IMG/VR virus record: IMGVR_UViG_3300020183_000113
Span: 1-51,519 of that record
Source of the DNA: a virus
Length of the DNA stretch: 51,519 nt
Strand: one strand, 5' to 3'
The notes under the pieces are model-generated. The model saw only the letters and a list, made by a program, of their open reading frames with translations. It was not told the origin of the DNA and searched no databases. This document shows positions 24,218 to 51,367 of this stretch, in pieces. Each line of letters begins with the position of its first letter. Within the stretch, counting starts at the first letter, position 1. The position numbers were made by a program, and so were the translations under genes.

Positions 24218-24530
24218 AATAATAAAAATAGTTTTCTACCGCCGACTTATAATCTTGTAATGACGAGACCAAAGGAAACGGAATTACCAAAATTGCGCCA
24301 TCGTAGATTGTATTTTCTAAACCTCCGAAAATTGGATTTGCTTGTAATATCAACCAGTTATATACCGGTGAATTATAAAACTGTTGTGATACCTTATCTA
24401 ACCTACTTTGACCCACTTTGTAAATGTAAGCTTTGTCGGTTGTTTTTGAAGGCAATGTGACAAATGGTACAACTGATTGTTGACCGTTGATGATGAATTC
24501 TGTATATCTATTGTAATATGGATAGCTCAT
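24207..24530 (-). CDS. Baseplate wedge protein, gp53-like
   Basis: A 107-residue protein with the compact gp53/LysM-like pattern: YTEFIINGQQSVVPFV, then GQSRLDKVSQQFYNSPVYNW and LILQANPIFGGLENTIYDGA, then IPFPLVSSLQDYKSAVENYF. T4 gp53 is 196 residues, so this is a short form that is common in T4-like phages of other hosts. It joins wedges around the hub with gp6 and gp25. It is nested between two giant genes: its stop overlaps the hub gene start by 11 bases and its ATG overlaps the stop of the 1658-aa gene by one base. Confidence 0.88.
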   Translation of the reverse strand: MSYPYYNRYTEFIINGQQSVVPFVTLPSKTTDKAYIYKVGQSRLDKVSQQFYNSPVYNWLILQANPIFGGLENTIYDGAILVIPFPLVSSLQDYKSAVENYFYYYGR

Positions 24531-27500
24531 TAGTTAAGTTTTACTTTAGAAATATACACACCGGTTCCATCTAATGAATTCCAAACCGCTTTTTCTCTAT
24601 TACTATTATTCACCGCACCTAAAGACCTAATGAGTTTTTTCTGACCGTCGTTTGGTGAGTCGTTCCTGTCGTAATCGAAGTCCCTAATTTTTCCTGTTGG
24701 ATATGGGGTAAAATTCAAGAAGTTTTTCAATTTATCTTTTTCTATGGTGTCCAAAAAGGTTGTTGTCAATTTATCTTCTTCTTCGAACGCTGGCTTAGCT
24801 TTCACTTCCCAATAAGAGTCAAATACTTTTCCATAGTCGCTATTTCTACTCGAACCACCTAAACTCGGGTTGGTTATCAATTCTCCAACTATAAAATTTT
24901 TAAAATTTTGATAGTTAGCCGATTTCAAATCCTGTGACAGTATAGCATACATTCTTCTGAATTGTAAGTCTCCAAAATTATCATTGAGACTGAATGGGAA
25001 GAATACTTGACTACCAAATTCTTGAGGAGAACTAGAATCCCAATATGTGAGATAACCTGTATAACCTGTTGAACCATCTTGGAAAGATGTTTGACTTTTC
25101 AAGGCATCATAATAACCATTTATCGCAACTCCAATTTTCTCTGAATCAGAAACTAATTCTGTGGCGGAGCCGTTTATCTCAGTCAAATCATAAATTACAA
25201 GATTACCATTTTTTTGTTGATATCCATCTGTACCATCAGCTGAACCGTTGACATATGGAATAGTATTGATTCTTGAAAGGTATTGAATGAAGTTTTGTTG
25301 ATTATATGTGGTATCTTGAATAATTTTCGCAATTGCATTCATAAAAGTATCCCTCTTGTTATTTACGAAATTTGTGTAATTCGTTTTGATTATTCTTTGT
25401 GCCTTCGCTGATAAATCAGGACCCGGTGAACCAATGAATTGCAAAAATGGGTCACTATCATTTTTTATATCCTTTAACATATCAGAAAATATGTTATCAA
25501 TCGAAGTTTGATAATTATCGTTTTTTCCGAACAACAACACATCCTCGGAAGGGTTCGATATCAAATTACCTTGTTGATAAATGTTCCCGAAGGACCAAAG
25601 TTGTAAAATGGCGTTGTTATACTGTGTGAAGGTGCTTCTACATTGATTGAACATTGTTTGGAAATAGGTTTGGGTTTGTGTTAGAACAGTATCCATGAAT
25701 TGGGTATAGCTTAATACACCTGTTTCTCCTGTTGAAGTTATAACATTAGTTGTTCTGTTTCCTATTGTCGATGCGTTCCCGAGTCCACTGGTATTTTGTA
25801 CTTGATTTGTGGTTGGTGCTGACGGTTGTTGTACCATTTGTAGAAAATCCTTACTCAAAACTTTTAGATTATTGAGGTCGGTTGGGTCAGCTCTTTCATC
25901 CCACATTTCAGTGTTGGCGTAATAATTGAATGACAGAGCGTTTTGAAGTCTATCTACAGCATTTGCAAGACCTTGTCCACCAACAAAATTGAATCCCAAA
26001 GTTACACTAGCAATCATCGGTTGAATACCGATACCTTCAGGATTTATATCCAAACCCTCAAATTGTAATTGAAGACTGTTGGGTATTATCTTTGTATGAT
26101 AAAAATCCCCTATTCTTAAAACAAGCACGGGAGGTATACCAAAAGCTGTGTTTATAGCGTTATTAAAGTCCAACTGATAACTTCCATCAGGTTGTGGGTT
26201 TACGGTTGGTATTGTGTCTCCGGGTCTCATACATTGTTGCAAGAAAGTTAATCTTGAGTTAAGACCCTCAGGTGTGGTCGAATGAAAACCAGGTTGGAAA
26301 AACTTCAATTTTTGTTTTAAACTGTCGTACACCATTGGAGTTTCCTGTTTTATTGTTTCGAAATAATCACACTCTGAAATAAGGTTTCTGACTATTCTTT
26401 TTGTGACCCAATCTGAATTTCGGTACTTTGGTTCTAAATCAGCTCGAGGAATTGGTCTTTCTTGATTTGTTTGTAATACTGAACCTGATGGAACATTTGG
26501 ATTTGCAGGTTTTTGTACGGGTTGTGGACTACTGACTATAATTTTACTAATGGACACTCTTCTACAAGCCATAGCCTTTGTACTAGTAATATTCGGATTA
26601 CTGTCGTAGGTATTCGAATCGTTATTACTTATTATCTCAGAACATTTTTCAGTTTGAATATTTGAGACAAACTGTGTACCTTGGTATTGTCTTACCTCAC
26701 CACTTTCTCCAAGAGCTTTAACTGTAGGAAAAATAATCCTTCTATTAGCAACAAAGTTTTTTAATTTTTCGTTGTCTGTAAAAAACTTTATAATACTTAC
26801 ACCTCTCCTCTCCGATAGTTTTATATTATAATCATTAGTACCAGGGGCAGATGCACTGGCTTCCAAGAAAATAGTCACCGTTGAATTGGAATTTTCTTTC
26901 AGGAATTGTGCCAATTGGTCGACAAACTTTTCTTTAATTTCGTCATAGTTCTCAGCAACTACATCATCAAAAAAACGGGCGGATTCACTTCCGGAAGGGT
27001 AGGTACCTCCAATTTGAGAATTGTATGTTGTATAATAATAATCGTAATCTTGCACAGTGTCACTGACAACGGGTTGGGCGTTGGGGAAGAAGAAGGCAAA
27101 GTTTTCAAATTGTTTGAATGTTTCCGATGGTGTCTGTTGTACAGGTTGAATTGTCACTTGACTTTTATTTTCTGTATCAAAAGCTCCTGATGCTTGATTA
27201 TCTCTGATTGCTCCAATCGCTTCTTTACTAGCATCCTTGGACGAGATAATTTGTTGTAATACGGCGAGTTCGTTTGGTGAAATTGTGTAGTATTTCTTAG
27301 CCAACTCATACAAATCATATTTCTTACAGCCGGCAAAAAATGAATCCAACAATCCGTTAATTCTCTCTGAGTTAGTATTATTAGCTAAAACTTTGTTTAC
27401 TATAACATTCAGAACTGATGGATGGTCAACAACAATTTTCCAAGAGATAGTTCCGTCTCGGGATGAATTTGTGTAGGTGTAAATCTTTTCTGTTCTACCC

Positions 27501-29506
27501 AAGAAATCTTGTTCCTTCCAACTTGCTCTTGAATTTTCTGAAAACGTTAACGCATAAGGTGGGAACCACATTACCCTACCACCATTCGGTCCTCTTTCAC
27601 AAATTGGTAGGTCGTTAACGTTCACTCCTGGTGTATGTGATGTTCTCCAAGCTAAGTTCTCTAATGAGAACATATATTTTTTGGCATAAGCTTGGTCTCC
27701 AGTACCTATAAGATTGGAAGAGTCTTGACCTCCCTCTTGTTTGTTCGGGTAAATATTAAGATTATATGTTTTATCAAATACCGAAAAGGAAAATCTTCTA
27801 TTTTCATTAACAACCCCATCAGTTTTTTGCAAATCGGAATATTGGGCGTATGGAAGGTCTTTAGAAAAAACTCTACAGTATTCGGTTCCAACCTCTTGTC
27901 CTAATGAACCAACATAAGTTAATACTCTTGAACCCTTTGTCATTTCTCTATACCCGTCATGAAAGACTTTACTCACTTGGTCAATAGCGTTTCCGACGTG
28001 TTGTAATCTTCTACCACCATTAGGTTGACTATCTATCAACCTCTGTGTGTCATCCATAATAGAACCCCCCCTGAATGGAATATTTGTGGATTCTGTTGTG
28101 ACAAATGATGAAGGTCTGAAGTTTTCATCTGGGTTTGTTACTTCACCACCTATACCCACCTTTTTTCCAGCATTTCCTTTATATTTCGGAGAAACCCATG
28201 TTAGGCCACCCTCTAATCCGCCACCATCAATATAAACTGGAGCATTTGCTCCTAATCTTATTTCTCTATTCGGACCCTCATATAATTGAGCTAATTCCGT
28301 GGGTCCATATACAGGTGCCTGAACTTCTGCTCCAAATTCACTGACGGGTAAGTCTCCTGTAGGTGAAAATATTTGAGAGGGGTCAGAAGTAATTGAGCCA
28401 ATATAAAAATTAGAATTATTTTGCGTGGTTCCTACAATTGCACCACCCATTCTATCAAAAATATTTCTGTTGTATTCTGGTTTGAATCTATTGAATTTAA
28501 GGTTTCCGAATAATCTTGACCTTTGACCACCACCCGTATTATTCAAAAAAATTTGTGAACCTGTTCGGTCCACTCCTAGTAATCTCGAAAAAAATTTTCC
28601 AACCCCTGTATTTGATTGTCTGAATGCATTTGTGATTTGTTGAATAGTTGTTGGTTGTCCTAAGACAATACTTGTATCGAAATAGGAACCTGGTATTGGT
28701 GAAACAGGTATTATACTGCCCGCCAATCTCAAAGCAAAGTCTGCTGCCGCTAAAACAGGGTTTTGTGGTACTGTGATTGTGAAGTTTGGTTCAATTAATG
28801 GTACTCTTGTTGTGACTAAATTAAGAATGTCAGTACCGCTATCCACATTGAAAAGATTTGCCCTTGCCAAAGTATTTTGGAAAATGTTGGCGGCTATTCT
28901 GTCTTGGAATTCTTTTTTAAGTGTCCTTGCTCCTAATTGAGCTAAAAAGGAGTCTTGACTCATTAATCCATTACTTCCCAAAGGGTCAGGGTTTAAAAGT
29001 ATAGATATTGGAGCATATGATGAAGGAACAAAAGTTGTAGGGTATGGTTGATTATTATAAAGGTTCGGAGTACCACTTCTTATAAAGTCTGGTTGAGTAA
29101 TGTACTCACCACTATCTAATACTTCTTCTGTTCCATTAGAATAGGCGTTTTTGGGCTTCCAATTGTATTGTTCGATAGATGCTTGGTCCAATATTCGAGC
29201 ATCTTGTTGACCAGGCCCATATTCTCCCTCATTGGATTTAGAATTTGTTAATGCTCCAGGGTCAGGTACCTGTCTATAACCTCCTTCAGCACCGTACTGA
29301 TTGAGAGGATATAATCTATTTGCTAAACTTGGCTCATCGATTAATTGGTCTGGACTATCCTGTACGGATAAATCAGTTTGAATATAGGGTACATTGTTTG
29401 AAAAAGAAGGTCTGTTGGGAGCCTTAGCGTAAGGTGTAAGGTTCCTTGTAATTAATTTTTTTCTGAACGCGTCTGAGTTGACTAAATCTAACGGACTTCC
29501 TTCCAT
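24530..29506 (-). CDS. Giant baseplate protein with embedded OmpA-like domain (1658 aa)
   Basis: Start set at the ATG 29506-29504 (MEGSPLDLV); a TTG directly upstream is ignored. Three regions can be read. Residues about 640-700: WFPPYALTFSENSRASWKEQ and FLGRTEKIYTYTNSSRDGTI, then VVDHPS, a motif seen in phage baseplate/tail-junction proteins. Residues about 850-990: an OmpA-C-like peptidoglycan-binding domain with TVTIFLEASASAPGTNDYN, LSERRGVSIIKFF near 900 and CRRVSISKI near 980. Residues about 1150-1210: LDINPEGIGIQPMIASVTLG and LQNALSFNYYANTEMWDER. The last part is helical. It lies between the tape measure and gp53, so a baseplate/tube-junction location is likely. The OmpA-like domain would touch the cell wall (inference). 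Confidence 0.8.
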   Translation of the reverse strand: MEGSPLDLVNSDAFRKKLITRNLTPYAKAPNRPSFSNNVPYIQTDLSVQDSPDQLIDEPSLANRLYPLNQYGAEGGYRQVPDPGALTNSKSNEGEYGPGQQDARILDQASIEQYNWKPKNAYSNGTEEVLDSGEYITQPDFIRSGTPNLYNNQPYPTTFVPSSYAPISILLNPDPLGSNGLMSQDSFLAQLGARTLKKEFQDRIAANIFQNTLARANLFNVDSGTDILNLVTTRVPLIEPNFTITVPQNPVLAAADFALRLAGSIIPVSPIPGSYFDTSIVLGQPTTIQQITNAFRQSNTGVGKFFSRLLGVDRTGSQIFLNNTGGGQRSRLFGNLKFNRFKPEYNRNIFDRMGGAIVGTTQNNSNFYIGSITSDPSQIFSPTGDLPVSEFGAEVQAPVYGPTELAQLYEGPNREIRLGANAPVYIDGGGLEGGLTWVSPKYKGNAGKKVGIGGEVTNPDENFRPSSFVTTESTNIPFRGGSIMDDTQRLIDSQPNGGRRLQHVGNAIDQVSKVFHDGYREMTKGSRVLTYVGSLGQEVGTEYCRVFSKDLPYAQYSDLQKTDGVVNENRRFSFSVFDKTYNLNIYPNKQEGGQDSSNLIGTGDQAYAKKYMFSLENLAWRTSHTPGVNVNDLPICERGPNGGRVMWFPPYALTFSENSRASWKEQDFLGRTEKIYTYTNSSRDGTISWKIVVDHPSVLNVIVNKVLANNTNSERINGLLDSFFAGCKKYDLYELAKKYYTISPNELAVLQQIISSKDASKEAIGAIRDNQASGAFDTENKSQVTIQPVQQTPSETFKQFENFAFFFPNAQPVVSDTVQDYDYYYTTYNSQIGGTYPSGSESARFFDDVVAENYDEIKEKFVDQLAQFLKENSNSTVTIFLEASASAPGTNDYNIKLSERRGVSIIKFFTDNEKLKNFVANRRIIFPTVKALGESGEVRQYQGTQFVSNIQTEKCSEIISNNDSNTYDSNPNITSTKAMACRRVSISKIIVSSPQPVQKPANPNVPSGSVLQTNQERPIPRADLEPKYRNSDWVTKRIVRNLISECDYFETIKQETPMVYDSLKQKLKFFQPGFHSTTPEGLNSRLTFLQQCMRPGDTIPTVNPQPDGSYQLDFNNAINTAFGIPPVLVLRIGDFYHTKIIPNSLQLQFEGLDINPEGIGIQPMIASVTLGFNFVGGQGLANAVDRLQNALSFNYYANTEMWDERADPTDLNNLKVLSKDFLQMVQQPSAPTTNQVQNTSGLGNASTIGNRTTNVITSTGETGVLSYTQFMDTVLTQTQTYFQTMFNQCRSTFTQYNNAILQLWSFGNIYQQGNLISNPSEDVLLFGKNDNYQTSIDNIFSDMLKDIKNDSDPFLQFIGSPGPDLSAKAQRIIKTNYTNFVNNKRDTFMNAIAKIIQDTTYNQQNFIQYLSRINTIPYVNGSADGTDGYQQKNGNLVIYDLTEINGSATELVSDSEKIGVAINGYYDALKSQTSFQDGSTGYTGYLTYWDSSSPQEFGSQVFFPFSLNDNFGDLQFRRMYAILSQDLKSANYQNFKNFIVGELITNPSLGGSSRNSDYGKVFDSYWEVKAKPAFEEEDKLTTTFLDTIEKDKLKNFLNFTPYPTGKIRDFDYDRNDSPNDGQKKLIRSLGAVNNSNREKAVWNSLDGTGVYISKVKLN

Positions 29507-29520
29507 CAAAATTTATTTAT

Positions 29521-38429: not shown

Positions 38430-39119
38430 TTAATTTTTTGTCATCGAAGCCACAGTCGTCAATGCGTTCCAATGAGAAGAGGACTTGGAAGAACTTGCAC
38501 CATTAACTATTCCGAGCCCTCTACCTTGGGAATTTCCAACAAATACATTTGAAGCCGGTACTCCGCTATCAACTGCACTTCTAACACTTGATTTTGTCTC
38601 AGGACCAAGAGCGTACGGCTCTATTATATAAAGCATGTTTTTGGATGTGCCCATAGCACTTGCAATATCGCTGGATTTCCTACAACCCGCACTGAAAAGA
38701 TACACAGGTATATTTTGGTTTTGGTTTATGAATTCAACTATAGTTGAGGTTGGTGTATTATATGTAAATTCTTTGACCTTTTTATCAACACCCAAACCTT
38801 GTTTTAATAAATTAGCTTGAGAACCAATTTTTAAATCACCAACCCTGTAGTCTAACCCACCAACCAAGACAGCATCGTAACCACCAATAGTTTTTTCAGG
38901 GAATTTTATATCCTTTGGGACTGAAAGTCCGAATTCTTTTTCAACCGCTTTTCTTGTGAGAGGACCAAGTAAACCATCAACACCATCTTTATTAGGACCA
39001 TACTTTCCTAAATCATAACCTTTACTAACCAATACTTTCTGAATTCTTTCGACATCAGAACTGAAAGTGGCTGTTTCGATTAACATATTATGTTGTGATT
39101 CTTTAAGAATATATCTCAT
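38430..39119 (-). CDS. Peptidoglycan-binding-domain protein, C-terminal domain unknown
   Basis: A 229-residue protein. Residues 21-65 are a PG_binding_1 three-helix domain: VERIQKVLVSKGYDLGKYGP, DGVDGLLGPLTRKAVEKEFG. Residues 75-229 have an alpha/beta character (VYLFSAGCRKSSDIASAMG near 140, VFVGNSQGRGLGIVNG near 195, then Ser-rich SSSHWNALTTVASM). The glycine/serine-rich loops and a late histidine hint at a hydrolase, but no known catalytic motif is certain. It could be an endolysin or a virion-associated wall-binding protein. No signal peptide or transmembrane segment. It lies between gp15-like and gp14-like candidates, which favours a virion role. Confidence 0.7.
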   Translation of the reverse strand: MRYILKESQHNMLIETATFSSDVERIQKVLVSKGYDLGKYGPNKDGVDGLLGPLTRKAVEKEFGLSVPKDIKFPEKTIGGYDAVLVGGLDYRVGDLKIGSQANLLKQGLGVDKKVKEFTYNTPTSTIVEFINQNQNIPVYLFSAGCRKSSDIASAMGTSKNMLYIIEPYALGPETKSSVRSAVDSGVPASNVFVGNSQGRGLGIVNGASSSKSSSHWNALTTVASMTKN

Positions 39120-39122
39120 AAA

Positions 39123-39638
39123 TTAAATTCCTTTAAATTCGTTCTCACTTACCATAGTAGCTACAATTGTTCTATAAAACGGTTTGTAACCACCGTAAGT
39201 ATGTTTGTTATCTGACCTTACATATCCATCGTCCTCTACAACATAGTATCTTACTCTATCTTCACTTTCATAGTATCCCAAATAATCTCCCATAAAAATC
39301 TCAACCCCTAAATCTTCTAAAGTTTTTTGATAAACACTAAATCTCATATTACCTGGTTCTTGCTGTTTAACTTTTGAGGTCCCCAATAATTTATTAGTCG
39401 GAGAAGAAACTTGGACATATCCTTTTATTTCAACAGGTGCCAGAAATTGAATCCCATCTTCCAAAACCTCACCATACACATCATCAGTTTTAGTTTTATA
39501 TCTATCTATTCTATAAAGAATGACAGTAAAATTCATATCTCCAATTAACCACTCCTCACCCATACCAATATCAAGAACATAATCTTCACCACCGAAAAAC
39601 TTACCGAGTCTTGTGATTGGAACTAAATTTTCTCTCAT
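39123..39638 (-). CDS. Neck protein candidate, gp14-like
   Basis: Start set at the ATG 39638-39636 (MRENLVPITRLGKFFGGEDY); a longer frame to 39704 would invade the divergent gene's start region. The 171-residue protein has YKTKTDDVYGEVLEDGIQFL near residue 48, reminiscent of the DxxYGE/FGED motif of T4 gp14, and a beta-rich C terminus with GDYLGYYESEDRVRYYVVED. T4 gp14 is 256 residues. Gene order gp13, this gene, gp15-like, sheath, tube follows T4. The assignment is by motif and order only. An ATATTTATC box lies 3 bases before the ATG. Confidence 0.5.
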   Translation of the reverse strand: MRENLVPITRLGKFFGGEDYVLDIGMGEEWLIGDMNFTVILYRIDRYKTKTDDVYGEVLEDGIQFLAPVEIKGYVQVSSPTNKLLGTSKVKQQEPGNMRFSVYQKTLEDLGVEIFMGDYLGYYESEDRVRYYVVEDDGYVRSDNKHTYGGYKPFYRTIVATMVSENEFKGI

Positions 39639-39641
39639 ATT

Positions 39642-39650
39642 GATAAATAT
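39642..39650 (-). promoter_or_regulatory. ATATTTATC box in the divergent gp14-like/SET gene region
   Basis: Coding-strand ATATTTATC for the leftward gene, 3 bases before its ATG. The 43-base space 39639-39681 must also hold the start signals for the rightward SET gene. Confidence 0.3.
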
Positions 39651-39681
39651 TGTTTCAAAGATTATATTTCGACTAAGTACT

Positions 39682-40080
39682 ATGCGTGTAAATCCACCGA
39701 CCAAAATTTATTTGGACAAAAGTCCAATCCACGGTAGAGGAATATTTGCCTCTGAAAAAATTCTTATTAATGAAGTTTTCGAAATATGCCCATACTTGGA
39801 TTTGAATATTCCTAAAAAAACATCTAGCCCAATTTTGATTAACCATCGATTTAATTGGCCTATGGGGACATCAGAATGGGAATTACAAGTCGTTGGTTTA
39901 GGCTTTTCGAGTTTTTATAATCACAGTAACACACCAAATGCAAATTGGAGGTCCAATAAAGTACATGATACATTCGAGTTTTACGCAACAAGAGACATAG
40001 ATAAAGATGAAGAAATTCTAATTTTCTATGGTGGTGAAGAATATTGGAATGATGGTAGAAAAGATATTAATATCAAATAA
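39682..40080 (+). CDS. SET-domain protein methyltransferase-like
   Basis: Start set at the ATG 39682-39684 (MRVNPPTKIYLD); a frame open to 39613 would overlap the divergent gene. The 132-residue protein is a minimal SET domain, the fold of S-adenosylmethionine-dependent lysine methyltransferases. Signatures: SPIHGRGIFASEKILINE (GRG at 18-20), FYNHSNTPNANW (79-89, the NHS cofactor-binding element) and RDIDKDEEILIFYGGEEYW with Tyr116, the catalytic tyrosine position. No pre-SET or post-SET zinc cysteines. Its stop overlaps the start of the SNF2 gene (TAATG). Target unknown; a phage or host protein is possible. Confidence 0.85.
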   Translation: MRVNPPTKIYLDKSPIHGRGIFASEKILINEVFEICPYLDLNIPKKTSSPILINHRFNWPMGTSEWELQVVGLGFSSFYNHSNTPNANWRSNKVHDTFEFYATRDIDKDEEILIFYGGEEYWNDGRKDINIK

Positions 40081-41834
40081 TGAGTTCTGAAATTAGTTTA
40101 GAGTCTAAAGCCATCACATTACTCGAAACCTATCAGGGGGCTAACAACTACATTTTGGAGCTGAAAAGAAAGTCTCAAATTAATAAAAAATTTTATCCAA
40201 CAAGAAGTCAATCAGAATACATAATTGAAAACTATGAGATTTCCCCTAAAATTGCTCGAAAATGGATAATCTTAGATGCTTATTTTGCACAAAAACTCGC
40301 AGACGACAAATTATATACTGAAATTCCAACAAAAATATGGGTGGAAAAATTATTAGCGGAAAGGGAAAAATCTTTTCACATTTGGGGAAAAATTTTTGAT
40401 TCTGAAGAAATTCACGATTTTTGGCTTCCAAAGGCGGCTGTAATAAAAGATAATACCGTTAAGGATGTGGTGATTAACTACGAAAAATACTCTGTAAGAC
40501 CTCCTCTTAATCATCAAAAAGAGGCGGTTCAAAAACTAGTAGAAAACAAAAAATTCATATTGGCTGATGACATGGGTCTTGGTAAGACTACTTCAACAAT
40601 AATAGCCGCTCTTGAAACAGGTGCGAAAAAAATACTTATTATTTGTCCTGCAACATTGAAAATAAATTGGAAAAGGGAAATTGAGAACTACACTGACAAA
40701 AGTATTTTTATCGCGGAGGGAAAGAATTTTTCAACAGAACACGACTTTGTTATTATAAATTACGATATAATAAAAAATTTCCATGACATTAAGAAAAAAA
40801 GTGAGTCACAAATTAATAATGCGAATTTCGATTTGGTGGTTGTTGATGAGGCACACTATATCAAAAATCCTCAAGCCCAACGAACAAAATTAATTAATGA
40901 CATAGTCAAAAAAGTTGACCGACTATGGCTTTTAACAGGCACACCTATGACATCAAGACCAATTGATTATTATAACTTGTTAAGTCTTGTAGATTCACCT
41001 GTTGCCAAGAATTGGATGGCCTATGTTATCAGATATTGTTCGGGATATCAATTTAGGGTTGGTCCAAGAAAAGTTTGGAATGTGATGGGAGCATCAAACT
41101 TGGAAGAATTAAGAGACAGAACATCATCATTATTACTCAGAAGATTAAAAGAAGATGTTTTAGATTTGCCAGACAAGATTATTACACCTGTATATCTTAG
41201 ACTTAAATCTAAAGAGTATGAAGAACTCATGGGTGAATATTATAATTGGTACGAAAAAAACCCTGAAGAATCCAAATCTCTCACTGTTCAATTTACAAAA
41301 CTCACAAAAGTAAGACAAATTATTGCAGATGAGAAAACAAATCAAACGATTGAGCTTGCCGAAAACATATTAGAACAAGGAAAAAAAGTTATAATATTTT
41401 GTAATTTTACTAACTCTCTAAATAAAATCTGTGAACATTTTGGTAAGTCAGCAGTTAAACTTGATGGTTCAATGTCAAAACCCGAAAGACAATTAGCAGT
41501 GGACCAATTTCAAGAAAACGAAAAAATTACGGTGTTTGTTGGAAACATTAAGGCCGCTGGTGTCGGTATCACACTCACGTCAGCCGAAGCTGTAATAATG
41601 AACGACTTATCTTTTTTACCATCCGACCACTCTCAAGCCGAAGACCGAGCATACAGATACGGTCAAAAGAACAATGTATTGGTATATTACCCCATCTTTG
41701 AAAACACAATCGAGGGTATAATCTATGACATATTAAACCAAAAGAAAAACGTTATTGCTACTGTTATGGGGGACATTCAAAATTCTGCGGACTTCGTGGA
41801 AGAAATAATGAACCGCATCAACGAAATGAGATAA
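40080..41834 (+). CDS. SNF2-family helicase/ATPase
   Basis: A 584-residue two-domain SF2 ATPase of the SNF2 (SMARCAL1/HepA-like) group. Motifs: Q-like PPLNHQKEAVQKL (141-153), Walker A DDMGLGKTT (163-171), ICPATLKINWKREIE, Walker B VVVDEAHYIKNP with DEAH at 256-259, LLTGTPMTSRPIDYYN, and in the second half IIFCNFTNSLN, KLDGSMSKPERQ and the arginine finger motif SQAEDRAYRYGQ near 518. Such enzymes translocate on double-stranded DNA and remodel forks or bound proteins. The first 135 residues are a helical extension. It is coupled to the SET gene by a one-base overlap. Confidence 0.92.
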   Translation: MSSEISLESKAITLLETYQGANNYILELKRKSQINKKFYPTRSQSEYIIENYEISPKIARKWIILDAYFAQKLADDKLYTEIPTKIWVEKLLAEREKSFHIWGKIFDSEEIHDFWLPKAAVIKDNTVKDVVINYEKYSVRPPLNHQKEAVQKLVENKKFILADDMGLGKTTSTIIAALETGAKKILIICPATLKINWKREIENYTDKSIFIAEGKNFSTEHDFVIINYDIIKNFHDIKKKSESQINNANFDLVVVDEAHYIKNPQAQRTKLINDIVKKVDRLWLLTGTPMTSRPIDYYNLLSLVDSPVAKNWMAYVIRYCSGYQFRVGPRKVWNVMGASNLEELRDRTSSLLLRRLKEDVLDLPDKIITPVYLRLKSKEYEELMGEYYNWYEKNPEESKSLTVQFTKLTKVRQIIADEKTNQTIELAENILEQGKKVIIFCNFTNSLNKICEHFGKSAVKLDGSMSKPERQLAVDQFQENEKITVFVGNIKAAGVGITLTSAEAVIMNDLSFLPSDHSQAEDRAYRYGQKNNVLVYYPIFENTIEGIIYDILNQKKNVIATVMGDIQNSADFVEEIMNRINEMR

Positions 41835-41848
41835 TATCAGAAAGCGTG

Positions 41849-41857
41849 TTATTTATA
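41849..41857 (+). promoter_or_regulatory. TTATTTATA box within a short inverted repeat ahead of the SOD-fusion gene
   Basis: TTATTTATA lies 20 bases before the ATG at 41878, and is enclosed by arms GAAAGCGT and ACGCCTTTC, which can pair with one bulged base. The hairpin may also act as a weak terminator of the SNF2 transcript. Confidence 0.35.
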
Positions 41858-41877
41858 TAAAACGCCTTTCATTATTT

Positions 41878-43407
41878 ATGAAAAAATTACAAGAAGAAAT
41901 CCAAAAAATCGAATATAAGATTTTGGAAAACAAAGTGAACGAAGAGAAAAATTTACTCCTCACAGAAATGAAAAAAATAGGGATAGAAAAATTACCCTAT
42001 TCTTACTCAGCCCTCAAAACATTCATTGACCCCGAGACAATGGAATTTCACTACAACAAACATTATAAGGGTTATGTAGATAAATTGAACGACGCATTAG
42101 CCAAAAAGAATTACGGTGATTTGGAACTTGAAAAAATAATTAAAAATATTTCAAGGTACGACAAAGTAATAAGAAATAACGCTGGTGGAGCATTCAACCA
42201 CGCAATGTTTTGGAATATGTTAACACCGAAGCCAAAAAAATTGACTGGCGAACTTTATAAAAAGATTACCAAAGAATATGGTACATTCACCAATTTCAAA
42301 AAGAAATTTGAAACGATTGCTAAAGACAGGTTTGGGTCAGGATGGGTTTGGTTACTATTAACTAAGAACGGAAATTTGAAAATAATGTCTACTCCAAATC
42401 AAGACAACCCACTTATGAACGTTGTTGAAGGTGGGGGATTTCCATTATTGGGTTTGGACTTATGGGAACATGCTTATTATCTCAAATACAGAAACAAAAG
42501 AGACGAATACATCACAAACTTTTGGAAAGTTGTAAATTGGGATTTTGTTTCCAAACTATTCGAAATGAAATCCAAAACGAACCTTATTGAATCAAAAATT
42601 GGTCAAGGGTTACTAATGGAAGGTAAAAAAAATTTTATTCAATCTTGTGGTAAAGAGGATGATAACTTTTTTCAATCCTTATTAGAAAACAACGAGATTA
42701 GTAAAATATATGGTGGTGGAATTTATACCGCTCTCAAAAAAATTTCTTGGTTAGAATTCAAAGAAAAAGACATCAGTCAAAACAGAATGCAAGGTTTCTA
42801 TAAAGATGGAACAAGGCACGACATTAGTTATTTAGCTGGTAATCACAGGGCTTTTTGTATGATAACAAAAAGTGTGAACGCCCTACTTTCTTCTTTGGGA
42901 AAACCAAAAATTTTATTGCGGGGGAAAAAACCCGAAGAACAAATTGAGGGAATCAAAAGACTTGTCAAAATACTTGTAATGGGCGCTGACAAAATTTTTA
43001 AAGAAGATTCTGCTTTTTACATTGCTATTATGTCAAACTTAGGTGAAAGTAAAATAAAAGGAGGAAAAGTAGAATCATGGTCCAAAGAAAGATTGGAAAA
43101 AGAATTTGGAGAAGGTAATGTAGAAATAAAAAGTTCTTTCGGGGCACAATCTGATTCTGAGGGGTTAGATTGCGAAATTCAGGTTGACGGTAAAATTTAC
43201 AAATCACAAATAAAGCCATTTTCTACATACTTTATTGAGGATGAAAATTATGTAGTACTAACACCAAGTAGTGTAAAAAAATATAATGTTGATTGGATGA
43301 TTTTCAGTAATTCATTCGAAACTATCGTATTCGAAAACAAAAATATCGAAAAAGGAATAAATGCCTACAAGTTTCCCGTGAGTGATTTTATTTATACCTT
43401 GAGATGA
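41878..43407 (+). CDS. Fe/Mn superoxide dismutase fused to nuclease-like domain
   Basis: A 509-residue fusion. Residues 1-38 are a charged helix. Residues 39-228 are an Fe/Mn superoxide dismutase with the complete metal site: His58 in FHYNKH, His108 in FNHAMFW, Asp194 and His198 in LDLWEHAYY, plus DRFGSGWVWL. Residues 236-509 are not part of any SOD. Near 425-446 there is SDSEGLDCEIQVDG then KIYKSQIKPF, which fits the PD-(D/E)xK nuclease pattern (Asp431, Glu433, Gln444, Lys446). The nuclease reading is a motif judgement. Catalysis: superoxide dismutation; role of the fusion is unknown. Flanked by SNF2 and gp13-like genes, so it may be a virion or host-response protein. Confidence 0.8.
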   Translation: MKKLQEEIQKIEYKILENKVNEEKNLLLTEMKKIGIEKLPYSYSALKTFIDPETMEFHYNKHYKGYVDKLNDALAKKNYGDLELEKIIKNISRYDKVIRNNAGGAFNHAMFWNMLTPKPKKLTGELYKKITKEYGTFTNFKKKFETIAKDRFGSGWVWLLLTKNGNLKIMSTPNQDNPLMNVVEGGGFPLLGLDLWEHAYYLKYRNKRDEYITNFWKVVNWDFVSKLFEMKSKTNLIESKIGQGLLMEGKKNFIQSCGKEDDNFFQSLLENNEISKIYGGGIYTALKKISWLEFKEKDISQNRMQGFYKDGTRHDISYLAGNHRAFCMITKSVNALLSSLGKPKILLRGKKPEEQIEGIKRLVKILVMGADKIFKEDSAFYIAIMSNLGESKIKGGKVESWSKERLEKEFGEGNVEIKSSFGAQSDSEGLDCEIQVDGKIYKSQIKPFSTYFIEDENYVVLTPSSVKKYNVDWMIFSNSFETIVFENKNIEKGINAYKFPVSDFIYTLR

Positions 43408-43415
43408 TATTTATA
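43407..43415 (+). promoter_or_regulatory. ATATTTATA box ahead of gp13-like gene
   Basis: ATATTTATA, 14 bases before the ATG at 43430, starting on the last base of the SOD-fusion stop codon. Confidence 0.43.
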
Positions 43416-43429
43416 GCTAAATCATTTTG

Positions 43430-44557
43430 ATGGCAGTAATCCCTGAACCAGAAAGAAGTAGAATCTATAATAGATTAAGAAATCAACTTGGAGCGCCTTT
43501 ACGTAGTGTAGAACTTACTGACGAAATGCTTGACTCTTTGATGGAACTTTCAATTGGCGATTATGAAGAGTATATTCTACAGTGGTTGATTGATTCTCAA
43601 TGGGTCAACCTTGTCAATTTGAACATGAATGAAAAATCTGTCGCTAGAGCTTTGATAACAAGAACTATGGACTTTGAGCAACAATTTTCATACTCATATT
43701 CTAAAATTGTGGGACTACAAACAGTAGGACCTTGGGTGTTGAAAAAAGATTATTTTGAACTTAGTGCCAATACACAAAATTACGAAATTCCTGCGGGTCG
43801 TGAAGTAAACGAACTTCTATGGTTCTCGAACCGACCTTTCAACGCATTAGGAATAGGGGGTATTGGTGGATTTGGTTTTGGTGGTATAGGTTTGGGTGCA
43901 GACCAAGCAGGTTATGCTCAAATGGGTTATCAAGGCTCATACTTTATGATGTCAGGTTTTGACTACTTGATAAGAATGCAAGAAGCAAATATTTTAAACA
44001 GAATCTTAGGAGGTTCATTAACTTATAGAATAACAGGTTTACCCGATGGTAAGAAAAATATATTTCTTTATAATACACCCGGTGGAAGATTCAACTGGAG
44101 TAATTACAGCTTGTATGTTGGAAAAACTGTTTGGTATTGGTATTATGATGTAGGGCCCGATGATAGACTAGATTGTCTCAAAGCGAACCCAGACGTCATA
44201 AAACTACCAACAGACGTTCCAATCGAATCCCTTTCTTGGGAAGACATAAACGTTCCTGGCCAACAATGGGTCCGTAGATGGTTTACCGCCTATTGTAAAG
44301 AGACATTGGCGCGAGTAAGAGGAAAATACTCAGGTAATTTGAAAACTCCTGATAGTGAAATTACTTTGGATTATCAAAGTTTATCAACTGAATCCAAAGA
44401 CGAAAAATTAAAATTACTCGAGGAACTGACAGGTCCTGAAGGATGGTTAACAAGACTTAGACCTGAAAAAGTAATGGAGAGAGAAGCCACAATTGCAGAA
44501 AATCTTAACAAACAAATGAGATATAGAGCGATGCCCCGTCAAATTTACGTAATCTAA
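43430..44557 (+). CDS. Neck protein, gp13-like
   Basis: Start set at the ATG 43430-43432 (MAVIPEPERSRIYNRLRNQL); a TTG directly before is ignored. The 375-residue protein has the head-completion pattern LGAPLRSVELTDEMLDSLME near residues 20-40, then DYEEYILQWLI. T4 gp13 is 309 residues. Residues 141-156 are a Gly-rich stretch (GIGGIGGFGFGGIGLG), unusual and probably a flexible loop. Later GGSLTYRITGLPDGKK, WVRRWFTAYCKETLARVRGK and a charged C terminus. gp13 joins the head to the tail after DNA packaging. Followed by a one-base overlap (TAATGG) with the next gene. Confidence 0.72.
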   Translation: MAVIPEPERSRIYNRLRNQLGAPLRSVELTDEMLDSLMELSIGDYEEYILQWLIDSQWVNLVNLNMNEKSVARALITRTMDFEQQFSYSYSKIVGLQTVGPWVLKKDYFELSANTQNYEIPAGREVNELLWFSNRPFNALGIGGIGGFGFGGIGLGADQAGYAQMGYQGSYFMMSGFDYLIRMQEANILNRILGGSLTYRITGLPDGKKNIFLYNTPGGRFNWSNYSLYVGKTVWYWYYDVGPDDRLDCLKANPDVIKLPTDVPIESLSWEDINVPGQQWVRRWFTAYCKETLARVRGKYSGNLKTPDSEITLDYQSLSTESKDEKLKLLEELTGPEGWLTRLRPEKVMEREATIAENLNKQMRYRAMPRQIYVI

Positions 44558-44892
44558 TGGCAATTGTAAAATCAATACCTTCCATAAGAATTATAAATGG
44601 GTTTAAAATTGAAACCTCTGAAGTCGCAATTGTATCAGAGCCATCTTATACAATTCAGGGTGAAGCTTGTGTTGTTGTAAGAGGAATTCAAGAATCAATT
44701 CTTTATTTAAATTCAAAGACAAGTGACCATGTGGTTGTAAAATCAATGACAAAACTAGTGGTAATACCTGATTTGGGTTTAATCGATGAAGAGTTTAATG
44801 AAGTTGAATTAGATAAATTTGCTTGTGTGGAGTTTAGATTCGTTAGGGGTAATTGGTATATTCTCTCATCAGACGGATTGAAACAATCCTAA
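44557..44892 (+). CDS. Small beta-rich hypothetical protein
   Basis: A 111-residue, mostly beta protein (IVSEPSYTIQGEACVVVRGI, then VVVKSMTKLVVIPDLGLIDE). No family recognised. Its start overlaps the gp13-like stop by one base, and its 3' end overlaps the convergent DNA polymerase gene by 24 bases, so no independent terminator separates the two units. A small virion or neck-associated protein by context. Confidence 0.7.
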   Translation: MAIVKSIPSIRIINGFKIETSEVAIVSEPSYTIQGEACVVVRGIQESILYLNSKTSDHVVVKSMTKLVVIPDLGLIDEEFNEVELDKFACVEFRFVRGNWYILSSDGLKQS

Positions 44893-49769: not shown

Positions 49770-50643
49770 AAATTCTATTAAATTCTTCTAATATTCTGTA
49801 AAAACTTTTATTTTCTTCAAACAGTTTTGGATTCGTGCCTGATGGACAATTATCAGGACACCACCAAATGTCAAAGTGCTTACGTACAAACAAGTCTTTA
49901 TGATTTTGATACATCAAGCTCATAATAACCTCTTCATGATATACTCTTTCGACTGGTGTTATTTGATTAACATAATTTTCAAAAATACCAACAACATTGT
50001 CCCACAGGTCCCTATGACCTCCAAACATTCCACCTATAATATGAATACTTCTATCGTAATTGTTGTACCACTTTTCATTCACAGTTCCAGACCAATAATT
50101 TCTTTCATTGTCTTTTCCCAATATCAAGAACTTGCCTTCAGTATCCTCAATCAAATTTTTGAGAAAACTATTACTGAAAAGATTACTTTCATAATACCTA
50201 CCTTGAGGGTGTAAACTACCTGTAAGGTATTTGTTTGGTATAAGACCACAGTGAGATAAACCTGCGTCAATCCAAAAATAATAATCATAAGATTTATCTT
50301 CATTCCACCACCAAGCAAATTTTGACCACTGAATTTCAATACATCTGTCACCAGTTTTAGCATCTTCATAATTTTTGTGTTTGGAAAGGAGTTCTTCGAA
50401 TTTAGTTTTTTTCAAATCAAAGATTACAAATTGAAGTTTATCTTCACTAATATTATTTTCGGTATAAAAAAACCTTTTTAATCTTTCTATCTCTCTATCT
50501 GAGGTATAACAAACAAAATCAGCACCTGTGATTTTCAAAAGTGAAAGTAAACTGTATTGATAATGACCGCCTCTTGAGCTTCTTCCTCCAAACCCTGTAC
50601 CAGCCAAATCACTGTAGATACAAGTTATAAATTTAGTTCGCAT
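49762..50643 (-). CDS. HtrL/YibB-like glycosyltransferase
   Basis: A 293-residue protein related to the first module of its downstream neighbour: KFITCIYSDLAGTGFGG near the N terminus, YYFWIDAGLSHCG near 121-133, and IIGGMFGGHRDLW near 204. The shared WID(A/G)G and GGxFGG words suggest that the two genes are paralogues from duplication. Predicted glycosyltransferase; donor and acceptor unknown. It overlaps the downstream gene by 8 bases and the upstream GT25-like gene by 11 bases, so the three act as one unit. Confidence 0.75.
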   Translation of the reverse strand: MRTKFITCIYSDLAGTGFGGRSSRGGHYQYSLLSLLKITGADFVCYTSDREIERLKRFFYTENNISEDKLQFVIFDLKKTKFEELLSKHKNYEDAKTGDRCIEIQWSKFAWWWNEDKSYDYYFWIDAGLSHCGLIPNKYLTGSLHPQGRYYESNLFSNSFLKNLIEDTEGKFLILGKDNERNYWSGTVNEKWYNNYDRSIHIIGGMFGGHRDLWDNVVGIFENYVNQITPVERVYHEEVIMSLMYQNHKDLFVRKHFDIWWCPDNCPSGTNPKLFEENKSFYRILEEFNRIYE

Positions 50644-51367
50644 GGGTAAATTCTATATGAATATTTTGTTCTTTTGTAGATTTATTGTTATGTAAACTTA
50701 AAAACTCACCAGGTATTTTCACAGGAGAGTATTGATTCCAATTATAAGTTTGAGTATAAAAATTATTATACTGTCCGTGTGACACATCTGACCAATCAGA
50801 AATTTGAGGTCCTATTGGTACTATGGGTACATAACTCTGATAAATACTTGTAATAAATTGATAGATAAAGTCATCAATTGCAAAATAATTCAATTTTGAA
50901 GCCTCTTCTATTTCTAAAACCTTATCATAAACTGAACTATGATACATTATCATGTTGGTAGCAAAAATTCCCCTATGATGTTCCTCCTTGGGAGGTAGAT
51001 TAGTTGCATCCAAAAACCAAGGAAATTTCTCACTTCTATTGACCGGTCTGTTCAAAGTGGGAGCTAAGTTTACAACGGAAAACTCAAAATTTTCTGTTGT
51101 AGATTCGCATTTTTCGATGAAAGATTTTGCATAAGGCATTATGGTACAATCATCTTCAACTATGAGAACCTTATCATAATTTCTCTCTTTGGCAAGCTTT
51201 ATAATTTCCAAATGTGATTTTGTGCACCCAACATGACTGTTTGTATCCACCGCAGGAAAATACTCGTATTCCCAACCGATATACTCCATCTCCTTTTTGA
51301 TGGATTCGAACCTATCTTTTCGTCTCTCCAAATTTACAACAAATTTCGGAGAATCTGTGAAAATCAT
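50633..51367 (-). CDS. GT25-like glycosyltransferase
   Basis: A 244-residue protein of the glycosyltransferase family 25 (LPS biosynthesis) type: FVVNLERRKDRFESIKKEM near residues 9-27, a conserved GCTKSHLEIIKLA (47-59), and VLIVEDDCTIMP with the metal-binding EDD at 71-73. The C terminus carries ISDWSDVSHGQYN, similar to the loop after the donor site. It transfers a hexose to a lipid, protein or polysaccharide acceptor. Its ATG overlaps the stop of the partial upstream gene by one base, and its end overlaps the next gene by 11 bases. Confidence 0.82.
   Translation of the reverse strand: MIFTDSPKFVVNLERRKDRFESIKKEMEYIGWEYEYFPAVDTNSHVGCTKSHLEIIKLAKERNYDKVLIVEDDCTIMPYAKSFIEKCESTTENFEFSVVNLAPTLNRPVNRSEKFPWFLDATNLPPKEEHHRGIFATNMIMYHSSVYDKVLEIEEASKLNYFAIDDFIYQFITSIYQSYVPIVPIGPQISDWSDVSHGQYNNFYTQTYNWNQYSPVKIPGEFLSLHNNKSTKEQNIHIEFTHAN

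Follow-up and report, generated by a model that had tools for sequence, protein, structure and literature searches.

A putative modular operon in the neck region of T4-like phages, with a superoxide dismutase–nuclease fusion and a swappable SET gene

Introduction

The closest described systems to the locus that we analyze here each resemble one part of it. Proteins that consist of a SET domain alone and keep its catalytic elements include vSET from PBCV-1, SET domain-containing protein 7, the SETs of Stenotrophomonas phages, and cellular SET-only proteins. Phages also encode SNF2-family helicases (phrog_62), and complete Fe/Mn superoxide dismutases (SODs) with putative ligand residues include phage-borne ones. 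Finally, the PD-(D/E)xK fold and an E..D..QxK motif link the end of one protein of the locus (residues 389–509) to the homing endonuclease I-Ssp6803I, the Hjc resolvases, DpnI/NhoI, and the SPARDA complex. The locus lies in a 51,519-nucleotide stretch of viral DNA (positions 1 to 51,519 of IMG/VR record IMGVR_UViG_3300020183_000113), which we will call the window. In the window's neck region, a block of five rightward genes (39682 to 44892) encodes a SET-domain protein, an SNF2-family ATPase, a SOD fused to a nuclease-like domain, a head-tail adaptor-like protein, and a conserved 111-amino-acid (aa) protein.

Each protein also differs from its described relatives. In comparison to vSET-type enzymes, the window's SET is a facultative neck-region gene that is coupled to SNF2; the SET of Stenotrophomonas phage Moby is instead in a cluster of small genes. 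The window's SNF2 belongs to the same core family as the other phage SNF2 helicases (277 records of the phage collection match it at 1e-20), but the best 30 of these 277 records are 26–32% identical to it, and it sits in a neck operon. Unlike other Fe/Mn SODs, the window's SOD is fused to about 280 more residues. And unlike in other PD-(D/E)xK nucleases, a SOD and a helical part stand ahead of the window's nuclease core, for which we found no convincing family at the sequence level.

A passage in a study of freshwater phages counts SODs among their oxidative-stress genes (PMC6802176), and a passage on phage Ps15 names a SET-domain protein without giving its function (PMC9025141). In the portions of the open-access literature that we consulted, we found no description of a SOD–nuclease fusion, which is not proof of absence.

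Results

Conservation of the neck-region genes

We assessed the conservation of the locus with four scans of IMG/VR, which were anchored on the SOD fusion, the window's adaptor, a distant adaptor, and SET. We kept the best 80 matches from each scan, which over-samples near relatives, and the same contig can appear in more than one scan. In the first three scans, SNF2 was present at 80 of 80 loci each time. The SOD fusion was present at all 80 loci found with the window's adaptor and at 57 of the 80 found with the distant adaptor. SET was sporadic: where the slot upstream of SNF2 was in view, it was present at 32 of 70 loci (SOD fusion as anchor), 39 of 60 (window's adaptor), and 45 of 68 (distant adaptor). 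With SET itself as the anchor, SNF2 was nearby in 71 of 80 cases; of the nine exceptions, two (L102 and L120) are on contigs that end near SET, and in seven, SET lies elsewhere.

Merging loci with identical SNF2 and SET pairs left 120 genotypes. Both SET and the SOD fusion are present in 52 of these, the fusion without SET in 43, SET without the fusion in 16, and neither in 3; in the remaining 6, the fusion's position could not be seen. Of the 120 slots, 73 contain SET, 40 have fewer than 120 bases, and 7 have other content. At eight loci from the first survey (L303 is not among them), the slot is filled by a leftward open reading frame (ORF) of 105–113 aa instead of SET. The 19 genotypes that lack the fusion all keep SNF2, and in 18 of them, the gap between SNF2 and the adaptor is just 17–34 bases. 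(The gap is 771 bases in L259, which is on the same contig as L134.)

We then counted changes on two trees: a backbone tree of SNF2 and the adaptor (108 rows, built with FastTree), and a tree of the adaptor alone. SET changed at least 9 times on the combined tree and at least 11 times on the adaptor tree, versus 2 changes for the SOD fusion on either tree. SET, SNF2, and both halves of the fusion are under purifying selection, as the median dN/dS is 0.13 for SET (98 pairs), 0.029 for SNF2, 0.036 for the SOD half, and 0.177 for the nuclease half. (The nuclease half is about five times faster than the SOD half.)

We propose that these genes form a modular neck-region operon with a fixed SNF2, a near-fixed SOD–nuclease, and a swappable accessory SET that is not an obligate partner of SNF2. 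We give this reading a probability of about 0.68.

The superoxide dismutase–nuclease fusion

The SOD–nuclease, and not the SET–SNF2 pair, is the more unusual part of the locus. A reading of the window from its sequence alone (the sequence-only reading) had described a SOD fused to a nuclease-like domain, and this is borne out. The 509-aa protein contains Pfam's Sod_Fe_N and Sod_Fe_C, and its C-terminal half resembles PD-(D/E)xK enzymes in both fold and motif. We identified 520 viral stretches that match some part of the fusion; the best 80 all span both halves, so the fusion is not a chance observation. There are 108 distinct full-length relatives, with 497–513 aa. Among 29 records from the phage collection, none covers 80% of the fusion.

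The SOD half has both domains of an Fe/Mn SOD as well as the putative ligand residues. Its best solved chain is 6gsc (2.2e-61), and H58, H108, D194, and H198, which we take to be the metal ligands, are present in all 108 distinct sequences. Across 95 genotypes, the mean identity is 0.87 for the SOD half and 0.47 for the C-terminal half. In some relatives (L204, L207, L220, L277, L295, and others), roughly 276 to 1711 additional bases separate SNF2 from the fusion, which makes this junction a further insertion point.

Because the fusion as a whole was modeled poorly (pLDDT of 70.5), we modeled its C-terminal half by itself with AlphaFold2 (pLDDT of 86.9). Foldseek's best solved match for this model is I-Ssp6803I (E = 4e-3, probability 1.00), followed by Hjc resolvases. 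VIA-align gave Z scores, middling by the tool's own note, of 7.8 for I-Ssp6803I, 7.7 for Hjc, 7.6 for the SPARDA complex, and 7.4 for NhoI. In the first 29 rows from VIA-align, 23 are named as nucleases, restriction enzymes, or Holliday-junction resolvases; the other six (three SPARDA, RecU, PBP-related factor A, and SSO0001) are presumably nuclease-like as well. These matches mainly cover positions 159–279 of the model, rather than the helical part (about residues 259–388 of the fusion). E399, D426, D431, Q444, and K446 are present in 108 of 108 distinct sequences, and E399, D431, Q444, and K446 are also in 37 of 37 rows of a separate alignment. Thus, the core fold, the acidic residues, and the (E/Q)xK are all present. 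Despite the middling Z scores, we find the assignment convincing because the top fold matches agree with the motif. The C-terminal half is most likely a PD-(D/E)xK nuclease, with activity predicted from the model and the motif.

Sequence comparisons gave no convincing family name for this half. The window's nuclease half has no Pfam family, and across 37 members of the fusion family, Pfam gave nothing convincing (DUF6602 in 8 members, with a best value of 0.015; the best single value was 0.0036). PHROGs gave one unconvincing match to the nuclease half (0.056), NCBIfam gave none to the C-terminal half, and the best PDB sequence (0.045) was among unrelated names. A divergent member of the nuclease half had no match in the phage collection. 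In IMG/VR, a search with the window's nuclease type alone matched 26 loci.

The domain does have relatives in other settings. In BFVD, a library of viral structures, A0A6J5L953 has the same full domain and is named as a superoxide dismutase. A 1113-aa protein from an uncultured marine phage (A0A8D9CCA0, also in BFVD) has the same helical and nuclease domain in another architecture. The 735-kb phage LR756501 encodes an unfused 290-aa protein that is homologous to the C-terminal part of the fusion (hhalign probability 98.7) but lacks a SOD, and there is no SNF2 in the 12.4 kb covered. In LR756501, SET and the gene for this protein lie divergently side by side (L083:5023-6363), which makes a second SET–nuclease neighborhood, in one case. 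We found no relatives of the unfused protein in IMG/VR. We consider the combination of a SOD and a PD-(D/E)xK nuclease to be a new element that recurs in these phages.

What might the fusion be for? The simpler reading is that it is a bifunctional enzyme that acts in the infected cell. We also considered that it might be a polyprotein that is packaged in the head and whose linker is cut at LxE sites by a gp21-type protease; the freed SOD and nuclease would then go into the host along with the DNA, as T4's internal proteins do. According to passages in two articles, giant-phage proteases, like gp21, cut after a glutamate that follows a short motif (PMC9026906), and gp21 trims N-terminal peptides from internal proteins and from gp23 (PMC9958956). 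The gene for gp21 is found in 8 of 10 long relatives. The fusion's linker is variable and was modeled with low confidence (pLDDT under 50 at residues 234–252), yet it has two conserved LxE sites 10 residues apart: all 108 distinct sequences have E238, and 104 of them have E248. The full pattern (L/I/V/M two positions before and S/G/A/T next) is present in 99 and 91 of the 108, although a second count, with another anchor that misses 6 of the 108 sequences, was lower (97 and 82). Similar sites are found in two other proteins of these phages: in 5 of 5 records inspected, the capsid precursor begins with MGALLES and has LINE/A at residue 60, and 5 of 6 gp21-like proteins have RILE/A close to the N-terminus. 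(The capsid site is near the position in T4, at about residue 65.)

However, the LxE motif alone is weak, because conserved single LxE sites are also found in the SOD core (one, at residue 184), in SNF2 (three), and in the adaptor (two); we rejected the motif as strong proof of packaging. Furthermore, the T4 targeting peptides are N-terminal and end in the protease site, while the fusion's sites, at 238 and 248, are internal. An N-terminal tandem motif was found in 4 of 104 ORFs versus 0.44 in shuffled sequences, and three of the four look like orthologs. Overall, we view packaging as possible but rather unlikely, and it seems slightly less likely still that the virion delivers the SOD and the nuclease together at injection, after a gp21-type protease has cleaved the packaged polyprotein. 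If it did, then the injected SOD would act against the oxidative response and the nuclease against host or rival DNA.

Separately, we noticed that three ORFs near head genes (L357:17554-18468, L359:16639-17523, and L360:17050-17877) share an N-terminal KL(T/N)E...LxE stretch that resembles the fusion's linker. It might be a head-targeting peptide of this phage group.

Another idea is that the C-terminal half is like a homing endonuclease and was placed by mobility, with the fusion holding it beside a useful SOD. The best solved match is a homing endonuclease, the nuclease half evolves faster than the SOD half, and in T4, segE lies directly before uvsW. Also, where its relatives have the SOD–nuclease, L134 has an endonuclease VII/HNH-like gene (L134:8330-8893). 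However, Hjc and restriction enzymes score about as well as I-Ssp6803I. And since the fusion is near-fixed, with its nuclease half under purifying selection, we favor a retained function and think that homing ancestry is doubtful.

The SNF2 protein

Both helicase lobes of an SNF2-family ATPase are present above Pfam's cut-offs (SNF2-rel_dom at 1.7e-31 and Helicase_C at 2.5e-19), which upholds the family assigned from the sequence alone. The protein matches phrog_62 at 7.6e-116. Its best solved chain is 1z63, an snf2/rad54 family helicase, and the signature sequences LADDMGLGKT and DEA are kept in the alignment. According to Pfam, the 584-aa protein has no chromatin-reading accessory domains, so it does not look like a chromatin remodeler.

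We speculate that SNF2 replaces UvsW in the recombination and replication of these phages. T4's UvsW matches phrog_16 (7.1e-124), and in six long relatives, the sole long match to phrog_16 is this SNF2 (the match in G007 crosses a stop codon). There are additional short and partial matches to phrog_16 in G001–G003. But UvsW from T4 contains a UvsW_N domain, which Pfam does not find in the window's SNF2, and the records for the long relatives may be incomplete, so the replacement of UvsW is only weakly suggested.

Among profiles of defense systems (from PADLOC), SNF2 matched only generic helicases, while SET and the SOD–nuclease had no matches. The best of these matches was to ZorD1 (5.7e-46), which is described as an SNF2 helicase with an Mrr-like nuclease. 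So we considered that SNF2 and the nuclease domain might cooperate, as in ZorD-type proteins. The two genes are adjacent and on the same strand, and the fusion changed just twice on the tree. However, the match to ZorD is confined to the helicase core and scores 102.7 bits, as compared to NCBIfam's cut-off of 1500 bits; the helicase and the nuclease are in separate genes; and 19 of the 120 genotypes have SNF2 without the fusion. SNF2 does not appear to be a Zorya ZorD, and cooperation between these two proteins is unlikely.

The SET protein and its ties to SNF2

The SET ORF matches Pfam's SET domain with 52.1 bits (the cut-off is 22.4). The sequence-only reading had noted intact GRG, NHS, and catalytic tyrosine motifs, and these hold up: all 78 distinct relatives have G20, N80, H81, and Tyr116, while 65 of them have G18, and we saw no loss of the tyrosine or the NHS elements. 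(We take these to be the Gly motif, the Asn-His pair, and the catalytic Tyr.) Phage SETs have 121–132 aa and contain the SET domain alone (19 distinct sequences). A profile of 16 phage SETs has as its best solved structures 5h6z (SET domain-containing protein 7; 1.5e-23), 4rz0 (PFL0690c), and 1n3j (vSET of PBCV-1, with 119 aa; 5.7e-15). Identity to cellular relatives is 33–42% for the best 80 of 397. Given its single domain, its length of about 120 aa, and its motifs, SET is best read as a short, vSET-like, SET-only lysine methyltransferase, whose activity is predicted from its sequence.

SET and SNF2 are often adjacent, as the SET-anchored scan shows, and they are also coupled. The overlap of stop and start codons noted in the window (TAATG at 40078-40082) turned out to be general in the slot: the distance from SET's stop to SNF2's start is –4 in 47, –1 in 43, and 0 in 32 of the 172 loci measured, and it is between –4 and +11 bases in 164 of the 172.

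The two proteins vary in step only at short range. Pairwise identities among the 73 SET-bearing genotypes average 0.52 for SET and 0.83 for SNF2 and correlate weakly (r = 0.24). If the SNF2s are at least 95% identical (85 pairs), then the median identity of the SETs is 0.93, yet such a pair can have SETs that are 40% identical, while pairs with SNF2s that are 80–85% identical can have SETs at 99%. These mismatches point to the replacement of SET alleles by exchange.

Furthermore, SET is found without SNF2. It has no nearby SNF2 in seven viral contigs (L143–L145, L149, and L157–L159; some of these are near-duplicates), in Stenotrophomonas phage Moby, or in phage LR756501. (By eye, the SETs of the seven contigs are amid genes that resemble sugar- or glycosyltransferases and methyltransferases, and L158 and L159 also encode a large secreted-looking protein of cellular type.) And we found no SNF2 near SET in 80 bacterial or archaeal SET loci (average of 8.6 kb, tblastn at 1e-4).

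Among 24 long contigs, 15 have one SET and 9 have none. We rejected the idea that SET is relocated rather than lost: of 10 contigs without SET in the slot, G005 alone has one elsewhere, and it is weak.

We attribute the adjacency of SET and SNF2 to a shared position at a facultative slot. SNF2 is present in all of the adaptor-anchored loci, with or without SET, and SET changes at least 9 times on the tree, so a dedicated SET–SNF2 partnership is unlikely; instead, SET is a swappable accessory beside a fixed SNF2 and a near-fixed SOD–nuclease. The motifs, the coupling, and the repeated adjacency reported by the sequence-only reading all stand, but its partnership does not. In particular, a chromatin-like alliance of SET and SNF2 against nucleoid proteins or defense, for which the coupling, the adjacency, and SET's intact catalytic residues speak, is very improbable given how common SNF2 is without SET, the SETs without SNF2, and the weak co-variation of their sequences.

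The phage group and the limits of the block

Besides this locus, the window encodes a T4-like tail sheath, tube, and baseplate, as well as a DNA polymerase, ribonucleotide reductase, DnaB-like helicase, UvsX-like recombinase, and SSB. Its record is classed as linear and may be a fragment, and contigs from relatives reach 326 kb. A gp23-type capsid protein is encoded by 7 of 7 long relatives that we searched. Many of the best 80 of the 397 cellular relatives of SET are from Saprospiraceae and other Bacteroidota; others are from candidate phyla, spirochetes, and methanogens. These are large uncultivated T4-like phages (with gp23- and gp21-type proteins) whose host is probably in the Bacteroidota.

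The genes for SET, SNF2, and the SOD–nuclease are real, complete, and intact, and all are on the plus strand (Table 1), as originally described. The longest ORF for SET opens at an upstream GTG, but the ATG at 39682 matches the relatives. From the sequence, about 43 bp separate this ATG from the likely ATG of the divergent gene, which has no match in Pfam or PHROGs. The three genes were originally thought to form an island (39682-43407) that is opposite to its flanks. The left flank, at 39638 and below, is indeed leftward, but the island runs on to 44892: because the adaptor and the 111-aa gene are also rightward, the strand switches at about 39640 and 44890, and the polymerase follows leftward on the right side. 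So the motifs, the overlap, and the fusion of the original description were correct, but the island's boundaries were not.

Table 1. Features of the rightward block and its left border in the window
Feature	Positions	Strand	Evidence and remarks
Conserved neck-region gene, left border of SET slot	39123..39638	-	likely ATG; ORF opens at 39704
Divergent intergenic stretch, leftward block to SET	39639..39681		sequence; where the slot is empty in relatives, the gene matches are 52-70 bp apart
SET-domain protein, predicted protein-lysine methyltransferase, 132 aa	39682..40080	+	Pfam SET; facultative gene of slot from 39638 to SNF2 start
SNF2-family ATPase/helicase, 584 aa	40080..41834	+	Pfam SNF2-rel_dom, Helicase_C; phrog_62; fixed in locus
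SOD - helical part - PD-(D/E)xK nuclease fusion, 509 aa	41878..43407	+	single ORF; Pfam SOD domains
Fe/Mn-SOD domain, residues 37-230	41986..42567	+	best solved chain 6gsc; putative ligands kept
Low-confidence linker, residues 231-252, LxE sites E238 and E248	42568..42633	+	model pLDDT; conservation
PD-(D/E)xK nuclease core, residues 389-509	43042..43404	+	candidate catalytic E399, D431, Q444, K446; Foldseek, VIA-align
Head-tail adaptor-like neck protein, 376 aa	43427..44557	+	phrog_211, 1.3e-9
Conserved 111-aa gene, last of rightward block	44557..44892	+	ORF list; matches in relatives

Three other genes in the window caught our attention. A 1659-aa protein (24530-29509) has a weak internal match to the OmpA family (2.7e-5, under the curated cut-off) and no match in PHROGs at 0.001. 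A gene at 38430-39119, whose presence in relatives is patchy, weakly resembles peptidoglycan-binding sequences and has ILKES...LIET in its N-terminal part. And a gene at 50633-51367 is glucosyltransferase-like (phrog_2835, 1.5e-8).

Discussion

In the modular operon that we propose, SNF2 would be a short ATPase that most likely functions in recombination and replication of the phage, in place of UvsW. The SOD half of the fusion most likely removes superoxide, either in the infected cell or in the virion. DNA is most likely cut by the nuclease half at its E/D/QxK site, and the faster evolution of this half is what might be expected under an arms race. The upstream slot is empty, or it contains another small gene or a vSET-like SET. 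If SET is present, then it and SNF2 are probably translated from one message, and SET most likely methylates lysines of a host or phage protein.

Several points weigh against this proposal. Translational coupling and repeated adjacency still allow a functional link between SET and SNF2, and near-identical SNF2s mostly keep similar SETs. Our surveys of the best 80 matches over-sample near relatives. The proposed UvsW-like role of SNF2 is weakened by its lack of UvsW_N and by the possible incompleteness of the long relatives, and the signs of a Bacteroidota host are indirect. Finally, the activities of SET, SNF2, and the SOD–nuclease are predictions.

If both halves of the fusion are active, then some phage SODs that have been counted as simple antioxidant genes may do something else. 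A family of phage proteins with 108 distinct forms here, one member of which is named simply as a SOD, carries a second module, an unrecognized nuclease. And these phages, some of which have SET and some of which lack it while the rest of the operon is conserved, offer a natural comparison for identifying the targets of methylation by phage SETs.

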